Below, piece by piece: positions 7,370 to 35,888 of a stretch of DNA of 35,888 bases. The position numbers and the translations under genes are program-made. Position 1 is the first letter of the stretch; the number at the start of each line of letters is the position of its first letter. The stretch lies in contig SABN01000024.1 of NCBI GenBank assembly GCA_009928955.1, forward strand, positions 1-35,888. The letters are read 5' to 3'. Below the pieces are notes generated by a model. It did no database searches, was not told where the DNA came from, and saw only the letters and a list, made by a program, of their open reading frames with translations. The stretch is from Opitutia bacterium (GTDB taxonomy: Bacteria; Verrucomicrobiota; Kiritimatiellia; CAIQIC01; Lenti-01).

Positions 7370-8823
7370 AATCCTTCATTTCCCTGCTGTTTCCGCTGCT
7401 TTTCCTCTCCGGACCCGCATCGGCCCTCTATTTCCGCCTCGATGGCGACCGCCTCTGGCTCCAAGCCGAGCAGACGCCGCTGGTCGACATCCTCGACCAA
7501 TTCGCCCGCCTCGGCGTCGAGGTCCGGCTCGACCCGCGCATCCAGTCCACCGTCACCGGCGCCGTCCGGGGCGAAAACGTGGACGAGGCGCTGGAAGCCC
7601 TGCTCGAATCCTATGACTATCTGCTGACGTGGAAAATGCTCCGGGGGCCCCTCGGACGCATCCCCAAGCTGCAGGAAATGCAGGTGTTCCTGCCGGGCGG
7701 AAAAACCGCCGCCCTTCCGATCCCCAAAAAATCGGCGAAATTCGACTTCACGCGGGGCGTTCTCGGCACCGCTCCCGAATTCGTGAAGGATGAGCTGCTC
7801 ATCGGCGTGCGCCCCGGCGCTTCCTATGACCGGTTCAAGCGCCTGCTCGACGGCATCGGCGGCATGATCGTGGAATCCGATTCCGCCACGGGCATCTACC
7901 TCATCCGCTTCCCGGCCGGCACCAACGTCGAGGCGCTCCTGCGACAACTGGCCGACAACCCGCTCGTCGCCCACGCCGAACTGAACCTGGTGACCCGCCT
8001 GCCCGCCGCGGCCCCGTCCGCCGCGACCCGCCCCCCCGCTCTTCCCGCCGTCCGTCCCCCCGCCGATGGCTCCATCCCCGTCGCCGTCCTCGACAGCGGC
8101 CTCGATCCGCGCGCCGGCCTCTCCGCCCTCGTCTCCGCCGGCTGGGACGCCGTCGATCCCGACCGCGCCCTTTCCGACCCCGCCGGACACGGCACCCAGA
8201 TGGCCTTTCTGGCCTCCGGCCTCTTGGCGGCCGCGGGATCGGACCCCGCCGGCCAGATCCTTCCGCTGGTGTCCGTCCGCGCCTTCGACGAAGACGGCAA
8301 GACCTCCAACTTCGCCATCCTCCAGGCCCTCGCCTATGCCGCCCAGGCCGGCGCCAAGGTCGTCAACATGAGTTGGGGCTCCGAAACCGACAGCGATTTC
8401 ATGCGCACCGCCATGCAGGTGGCCGCCGACAAGGGCTTGCTCCTCGTCGCCGCCGCCGGCAACGCGCCCACCGGAATGCCCGTCTATCCCGCCGCCTATC
8501 CCGTCGTGATCGCCGTCGGCGGCGTCGATGCCTCCGGCCAGCCCTGGACGAATTCGAACCATGGCGACTTCCTCGATCTGTCCGCTTCCGCCTTCGCCTC
8601 CTTCCCCATTGGCCACAACGGCCCGGCCGGCGATTACGCCGGAACCTCCATCTCCTCCGCCGTCGTCGCCAACGCCCTCGCCCAATACATGAACCGGAAT
8701 CCGGGCGCGACCGCCGCCGCCGCCCGCGCCGCGCTCACCCAAGCCCTCTCCCCCGCCCCCGCCGGCGGCTACGGCGGCGGCATCCTCGATGCCGCCGCCC
8801 TGCGGCGCTTCCTGAATCCGTAA
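7351..8823 (+). CDS. Secreted subtilisin-like (S8) protease with N-terminal STN-like domain
   Basis: A 490-residue protein with a Sec signal peptide (MLPRHLKSFISLLFPLLFLSGPASA). Residues about 26-100 resemble the secretin/TonB short N-terminal (STN) domain (PLVDILDQFARLGVEVRLDPRI, then ALEALLESYDYLLTW). A region around residues 148-220 looks like a protease propeptide (DELLIGVRPG... NPLVAHAELN). The catalytic S8 domain has Asp248 (AVLDSGLD), His280 (GHGTQ), oxyanion Asn371 (AAAGN) and Ser433 (AGTSISS), so all catalytic residues are present. It probably acts in the periplasm or outside the cell. The start at 7351 gives the signal peptide; the longer ORF upstream is a shadow of the AbiEi-like gene. 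Pairing of STN with S8 is unusual in my knowledge. Confidence 0.88.
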   Translation: MLPRHLKSFISLLFPLLFLSGPASALYFRLDGDRLWLQAEQTPLVDILDQFARLGVEVRLDPRIQSTVTGAVRGENVDEALEALLESYDYLLTWKMLRGPLGRIPKLQEMQVFLPGGKTAALPIPKKSAKFDFTRGVLGTAPEFVKDELLIGVRPGASYDRFKRLLDGIGGMIVESDSATGIYLIRFPAGTNVEALLRQLADNPLVAHAELNLVTRLPAAAPSAATRPPALPAVRPPADGSIPVAVLDSGLDPRAGLSALVSAGWDAVDPDRALSDPAGHGTQMAFLASGLLAAAGSDPAGQILPLVSVRAFDEDGKTSNFAILQALAYAAQAGAKVVNMSWGSETDSDFMRTAMQVAADKGLLLVAAAGNAPTGMPVYPAAYPVVIAVGGVDASGQPWTNSNHGDFLDLSASAFASFPIGHNGPAGDYAGTSISSAVVANALAQYMNRNPGATAAAARAALTQALSPAPAGGYGGGILDAAALRRFLNP

Positions 8824-8835
8824 GCGCCGCTTGCT

Positions 8836-8941
8836 GAACTCTGGCTTGAACGGTCGGGACGGAGCCCGACCCTCCAGAAAACAAGCATAACCGCGTGTTC
8901 TTGGAAATGGAGGGACGACCTCCGCGTCGCCCGGGTTCGTT
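8836..8941. repeat. 106-bp dispersed repeat, copy 1
   Basis: This segment aligns without gaps to 35783-35888, with seven differences by eye. It contains two hairpins: GGTCGGG-ACGGAG-CCCGACC, and GGAGG-GACGA-CCTCC near its right end. It starts 12 bases after the protease stop. No coding function is apparent. It behaves like a REP/MITE-type interspersed element. Confidence 0.88.
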
Positions 8942-8982
8942 CCGCAAGAGGCTCATCCGGCTGGAATTTCTCGCGCGCGCGC

Positions 8983-9050
8983 AGAGGGCACAGAGAACCA
9001 CGGAGCCCATCGCCTTTCCCGGTGTTCTCCGCGTTCCTCTGTGCCCCCGG
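8983..9050. repeat. Imperfect inverted repeat with GGGCACAGAG arms
   Basis: The left arm AGAGGGCACAGAGAACCACGG (about 8983-9003) and the right arm CGCGTTCCTCTGTGCCCCCGG (about 9030-9050) are imperfect reverse complements. The element follows the 106-bp repeat in the 344-base gap between the protease and thioredoxin genes. Together with the promoter at 9107-9136 these are the only structures I see in that gap; the many small minus-strand ORFs are not credible. Confidence 0.6.
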
Positions 9051-9106
9051 TGAAAGCCTTCTTCTTCCTCCTTCTTCTCTTCCGTGCACAAATCCCAAAA
9101 TGCCTG

Positions 9107-22823: not shown

Positions 22824-22884
22824 GGCGCGCGCCTGGATCGACTTTGAAAAGAAAGCACCCCGATGCTTGATCAAATGAAACCAT

Positions 22885-22904
22885 GCATAGTTAATTAACT
22901 ATGC
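22885..22904. repeat. 20-bp perfect palindrome, copy 1
   Basis: GCATAGTTAATTAACTATGC, a perfect palindrome and identical to the copy at 22984. It lies 61 bases after the mnmG stop. Confidence 0.9.
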
Positions 22905-22983
22905 GCAGGCTGGAAACATCATAATTGTCTTTTGCTTAATCTAATGAGAAGCAATTATTCAATCGAATCATTACTTTTACGAC

Positions 22984-23003
22984 GCATAGTTAATTAACTA
23001 TGC
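22984..23003. repeat. 20-bp perfect palindrome, copy 2
   Basis: Identical to copy 1. Flanking bases differ between the copies, so the repeat unit is the palindrome itself. Confidence 0.9.
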
Positions 23004-23038
23004 ATTGAATATTTTGCAGAAAATTCAAAAACAGATTT

Positions 23039-35658: not shown

Positions 35659-35760
35659 TTTTCCACGCAATGGAAAAAATATTCGGGGTTTTTCCACGCA
35701 ATGGAAAACTTTTTTCCACGGTGTGGAAAAACGGGGCTGATTTTGCCACAGTATGGAACA
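35659..35760. repeat. Second array of phased TTTTCCA-N5-TGGAAAA palindromes
   Basis: Units start at 35659, 35690 and 35712, with a degenerate fourth at 35742 (TTTGCCA-CAGTA-TGGAACA). Central bases are CGCAA, CGCAA, CGGTG and CAGTA. Distances are 31, 22 and 30 bp, identical to the first four units at 841-942. The linker before the fourth unit (ACGGGGCTGAT) resembles that of the first array (ACAGGCCCGAT). The array lies upstream of the minus-strand membrane protein and phosphatase genes. Confidence 0.9.
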
Positions 35761-35782
35761 CTGTTCCATGGAGCCTGTTGCA

Positions 35783-35888
35783 GAACTCTGGCCCAAACGG
35801 TCGGGACGGAGCCCGACCCTCCAGAAAACAAGCGCAACCGCGTGTTCTTGGCAATGGAGGGACGACCTCCGCGTCGTCCGGGTTCGTT
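35783..35888. repeat. 106-bp dispersed repeat, copy 2 (cut by window end)
   Basis: About 93 percent identical by eye to 8836-8941, with the same two hairpins and no gaps. It follows the second palindrome array. The element may continue beyond the window. Confidence 0.88.

Follow-up and report, generated by a model that had tools for sequence, protein, structure and literature searches.

A repeat of 106 bp with two hairpins occurs twice, without gaps, in the window, by which we mean the whole stretch of 35,888 nucleotides analysed here: at 8836-8941 and at 35783-35888. The two copies are identical at 99 of 106 positions, in agreement with the identity of about 93 percent claimed by a sequence-only reading of the same DNA. 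The question raised by this locus is what kind of unit has been copied and which enzyme moves it. As judged from sequence comparisons, the repeat is very probably part of a non-autonomous IS1182-type MITE of 131 bp, inside which two GGAG-tagged REP hairpins lie in inverted orientation.

Limits and copies of the repeat

The limits of 106 bp turned out to be too narrow. The full unit reaches outward beyond them to terminal inverted repeats of 16 bp (consensus GAGCCTCTTGCARAAC) and measures 131 bp. Copy 1 (8824-8954, no strand assigned) is two-ended: the left terminal inverted repeat lies at 8824-8839 on the plus strand (GCGCCGCTTGCTGAAC, 3 mismatches to the consensus) and the right one at 8939-8954 on the minus strand (GAGCCTCTTGCGGAAC when read on that strand, 1 mismatch). 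Both fall at the margin of the 106 bp or directly beyond it, and the earlier statement that there is no clear terminal inverted repeat has to be given up. Between these ends, hairpin A (8852-8876, minus strand) reads TGGAGGG TCGGG CTCCGT CCCGA CC with the tag GGAG, and hairpin B (8908-8932, plus strand) reads TGGAGGG ACGAC CTCCGC GTCGC CC with one stem pair broken at 8930; the two hairpins of the unit are inverted relative to each other and their tags face inward. Copy 2 (35771-35888, no strand assigned) comprises 118 of the 131 bp and is incomplete because the contig that makes up the whole window, C320, stops at 35888. It is 99% identical to a consensus-like query and consists of a left terminal inverted repeat at 35771-35786 on the plus strand (GAGCCTGTTGCAGAAC, 1 mismatch), hairpin A at 35799-35823 on the minus strand, and hairpin B with an intact stem at 35855-35879 on the plus strand (TGGAGGGACGACCTCCGCGTCGTCC). 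A wider alignment of both copies gives 91% identity over 116 bp. Over 118 bp they differ at 11 positions, ten of them outside the stems, as had been supposed for the changes in general, and one inside, at 8930, where an A-T stem pair is disrupted in copy 1; two sequences do not suffice to judge whether this distribution is meaningful.

Copy 1 directly adjoins the TAA stop codon (8821-8823) of a subtilase-family gene, and its borders read GTAA and ATCC, the target duplication being gone. One would argue from this position immediately behind a stop codon, and from a strand that folds better than its shuffles (z -2.2), that the repeat is a structured RNA, a terminator or attenuator selected at gene ends, for which mobility is secondary. 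We regard this as extremely improbable, since the unit matches no Rfam family at the gathering threshold, its copies are found in both orientations, some hairpin copies lie in frame within the coding sequence of REP-associated tyrosine transposases (RAYTs), and copies stand beside unrelated sequence with target duplications. The Rfam scan of the window returned two tRNAs only, and viral contigs searched with a window protein gave no match. Two further inverted repeats were seen in the window: one beside copy 1 at 8975-9062 (GCAGAGGGCACAGAGAACCACGGAG ... CTCCGCGTTCCTCTGTGCCCC), unrelated to the MITE, and an AT-rich one at 22872-23016 with arms of 34 nt (CATAGTTAATTAACTATG) in a contig that is otherwise GC-rich.

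A DNA search of the host assembly located the repeat at 21 places at E<0.005, as the sequence-only reading had foreseen in speaking of many copies genome-wide; this and the other genome-wide copy and motif counts refer to the matches listed. About 11 of the copies have one or both ends, and the rest lack ends, being hairpins that stand singly or in pairs. The host's own copies have GAGCCTCTTGCARAAC ends on both sides and a length nearly constant at 131 bp. Being short (<300 bp), free of a transposase gene and present in about 11 copies in the host assembly, the unit qualifies as a MITE. Five host copies are 97-100% identical to one consensus-like query, which suggests that the spread of the 131-bp unit in this genome was recent. 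Contigs C124, C269 and C101 likewise stop within a copy, which points to breaks of the assembly at repeats, and therefore the assembly probably undercounts the copies.

IS1182-type ends and target duplications

The borders were studied in a set of 69 distinct two-ended elements, 80-320 bp long, collected from the host, from its relatives and from GTDB loci. An exact 4-bp direct repeat was found at the borders of 36 of the 69, against an expectation of 0.26 obtained by combining the left flank of one element with the right flank of another; exact matches of 3 bp and 5 bp numbered 3 and 2, and about half of the elements are without an exact 4-bp duplication. Among the host's own two-ended copies the duplication is present in 6 of 7, copy 1 of the window being the exception. 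Of 388 genomes of the phylum, 25 contain the exact end motif, while the reversed pattern, taken as a control, gave almost no matches. As assessed by eye, seven of the 11 host copies lie in or at the palindrome TTTTCCAY-NNN-RTGGAAAA, a frequent place of MITE insertion. The 3.4-Mb assembly contains about 328 such sites within two mismatches, and none for the reversed-pattern control. Arrays of the palindrome TTTTCCAYNNNRTGGAAAA were also observed in the window at 841-964 and 35659-35760, with spacings of 22 and 30-31 bp; a palindrome of such high copy number and regular spacing is perhaps a protein-binding array.

The same ends enclose a complete element in another genome of the phylum (L299), in which ends at 1 and 1506 delimit a unit of 1506 bp that contains an ORF for a transposase. 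The best NCBIfam model for this ORF is IS1182, below the cut-off of the model, and Pfam matches to DUF772 and DDE_Tnp_1 were found as well; its plasmid relatives are annotated as IS1182. L299 is the only full autonomous element seen in the phylum. The ends of the host MITE match those of L299 and are closely similar to those of two IS1182 elements, a copy of ISUnCu17 (L404), which starts with GAGCCTCTTGCAAAA and is flanked by ATGA on both sides, and a Comamonas element (L405) flanked by TGGT on both sides. ISPse1, also of the IS1182 family, has inverted repeats matching at 16 of 16 positions and a 4-bp duplication (PMC3281130). Inverted ends of about 16 bp and the 4-bp duplication are shared with insertion sequences of the IS1182 family (ISUnCu17, ISPse1) and their MITEs; the GAGCCTCTTGCAAAA end motif is shared with ISUnCu17, and the full-length relative of the unit has a DDE transposase. 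In contrast to IS1182 elements, the host unit has no transposase, is only 131 bp long and holds a REP pair inside, and no IS1182 gene was found in the host assembly. Taken together, the inverted ends, the 4-bp duplications, an IS1182 transposase between the same ends and the matching plasmid IS1182 elements argue that the 131-bp unit is an IS1182-type MITE.

An IS1182-family DDE transposase acting in trans would cut at the 16-bp ends and insert the unit with a 4-bp stagger. A homologue of the L299 protein was not found at 1e-10 in the host or its family, in a search run without a positive control, so the helper may be absent, unassembled or gone. The best DDE_Tnp_1 matches of the host, on contigs C178 and C30, were rejected as autonomous partners, as they are without these ends. 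Two long candidate elements (L258 and L280) were dropped for having no recognisable transposase, and in G178 two ends with 3.9 kb between them turned out to come from two different elements of 131 bp each rather than from one long element.

GGAG-tagged hairpins and their RAYT genes

The hairpins follow the pattern (T)GGAGG-6-bp stem-CTCCGY-stem, also read as TGGAGGG-stem-CTCCGY-stem. Covariation was tested with only the head and the loop as anchors and the 3' arm left free, on a set for which 120 of the loci had been retrieved by one stem type. Of 193 distinct units, 167 showed full stem pairing, whereas shuffling gave 37 on average and 56 at most; 21 different fully Watson-Crick stems occurred, and the earlier claim of conserved stems is thereby upheld. 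Judged by the conserved 5' tag and the covarying stem, the hairpins inside the 131-bp unit are REP elements; because the tag is GGAG, and not GTAG or GTGG, we file them as a variant REP class. They are abundant as stand-alone copies across genomes of the Verrucomicrobiota group. The exact hairpin TGGAGGGACGACCTCCGYGTCGTCC was found in GTDB genomes in at least 120 stretches, the titles of which, among the matches listed, mostly name Verrucomicrobia, Kiritimatiellae, Lentisphaerae, Opitutia or Spartobacteria; it is on this distribution that the assignment of the host to the phylum is based. Only about 16 of the 120 loci listed, all retrieved by the hairpin alone, have MITE ends, and therefore most of the hairpins are independent REPs.

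At five loci a small Y1 transposase gene has these hairpins on its flanks or within it: L160 (Opitutaceae) and L158 (Chthoniobacterales), which reach the RAYT model NF047646 at and above its cut-off, respectively; L244 (host's family), the protein of which matches NF047646; and L407 (host's genus) and L408 (host's family), which phmmer identified and which were included in the RAYT tree. The L160 protein also matches the structure of E. coli TnpA_REP (4er8, E 2e-7). In L244, L407 and L408 (G007, G010) a REP sequence is inserted in frame in the RAYT gene, adding tens of residues, and the flanks carry the same REPs. Genes for RAYTs are found in 16 of 17 genomes of the host's family, with up to 18 matches per genome, and several of these RAYTs have their own REP flavour (GTAG and GGAG). 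Beside the host's own nine Y1_Tnp loci a strict hairpin scan found no TGGAGGG REPs, and the RAYT gene on contig C270 (L038/L375) has GTAG REPs on its flanks.

Neighbouring hairpin units are oppositely oriented in 115 of 123 cases. Such alternation is the rule for REP pairs, and with cognate RAYTs present in the host's genus it could be that the repeat is a pure REP doublet (REPIN/BIME), moved whole by a RAYT, of which the 16-bp ends are merely a part. We consider this very unlikely: RAYT-type enzymes are not known for 4-bp target duplications or for such ends, both of which fit IS1182; most REP pairs lack the ends; and elements with the same ends and no REPs exist, 167 bp long in G330 and about 100 bp in G368. 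The RAYT link proposed in the sequence-only reading accordingly survives for the hairpins, given their position around RAYT genes in the host's genus and in other Verrucomicrobiota, and probably fails for the 131-bp unit with its IS1182-type ends and 4-bp duplications, which a RAYT is unlikely to have moved. Conversely, the hairpins could be intrinsic to the MITE and the stand-alone ones its decayed remnants, and the constant length of 131 bp and a partly shared spacer (GAAAACA...) across different bacterial families agree with this. However, arrays of hairpins without ends flank RAYT genes, and the stand-alone units are paired and have many different covarying stems, so that we give this possibility hardly any credence. 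The preferred reading is thus a composite, in which RAYTs would separately spread the hairpins, single or paired, by cutting single strands with the GGAG tag as their guide; IS1182 ends would at some point have captured a REP pair, and REP pair and ends would then have spread across the class as one unit.

REP tags and the residue at position 101

Published REP tags are GTAG or GTGG, CGTC, and CnGA for class 3 (Di Nocera 2013, PMC3733652; Quentin 2018, PMC6006769); we found no GGAG-tagged REPs in the open-access literature searched. The present hairpins share with GTAG REP/BIME elements and their RAYTs (PMC3733652, PMC6006769) a hairpin of about 25 bp, a conserved 5' tetranucleotide, a covarying stem, inverted pairs and the flanking of a RAYT gene. 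They differ from GTAG/GTGG REPs in the GGAG tag, in the conserved loop CTCCGY and in Thr or Arg at the RAYT position equivalent to His101, and the host pair further differs from GTAG REP/BIME in being enclosed in a DDE-type MITE. With CGTC REPs (PMC3733652) they have short tagged hairpins and inverted pairs in common; those REPs, however, bear a different tag and have no known RAYT, whereas the GGAG hairpins have RAYTs.

H101 of E. coli TnpA_REP is a guide-contacting residue (PMC6006769). The GGAG tag also occurs on REPs around several other RAYTs of the host's family, and in a tree of 23 RAYTs GGAG and GTAG are separated by one change (shuffled mean 7.8; 0 of 500 shuffles as low), the dividing branch having a support of only 42/36. 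At the aligned H101 position, His is present in all 10 GTAG RAYTs, and Thr or Arg in each of the 13 GGAG RAYTs. This rule was predicted beforehand and then tested on 88 hold-out loci from across the phylum, for which tags were called by script, with unparsed motifs read by eye, and clear two-sided cases were counted. The His RAYTs had 36 GT[AG]G and 0 GGAG tags, 3 more being ambiguous because the palindrome overlaps both tags; the Arg RAYTs had 6 GGAG and 3 GT[AG]G, and the Thr RAYTs 2 GGAG and 0 GT[AG]G. Therefore, in counts that treat loci as independent of shared ancestry, His is an exceptionless predictor of GT[AG]G, Thr agrees with GGAG, and Arg is compatible with either tag.

We tentatively propose, as a possibility that falls somewhat short of probable, that GGAG REPs and RAYTs with Thr or Arg at position 101 make up a guide-specificity class of their own that is widespread in the PVC group, and that the REP pairs ride as cargo of IS1182 MITEs, so that two unrelated chemistries, double-strand (DDE) and single-strand (HUH), could spread one small element. 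If this is true, a further tag class would be added to the REP/RAYT world, beyond GTAG/GTGG, CGTC and CnGA, and the swap between Thr or Arg and His at a guide-contacting position would offer a direct and testable rule for the choice of REPs by RAYTs. A REP pair packaged in a MITE would be a route by which REPs spread without a transposase of their own, and REPs packaged in this way may bear on how these elements spread within and between genomes.
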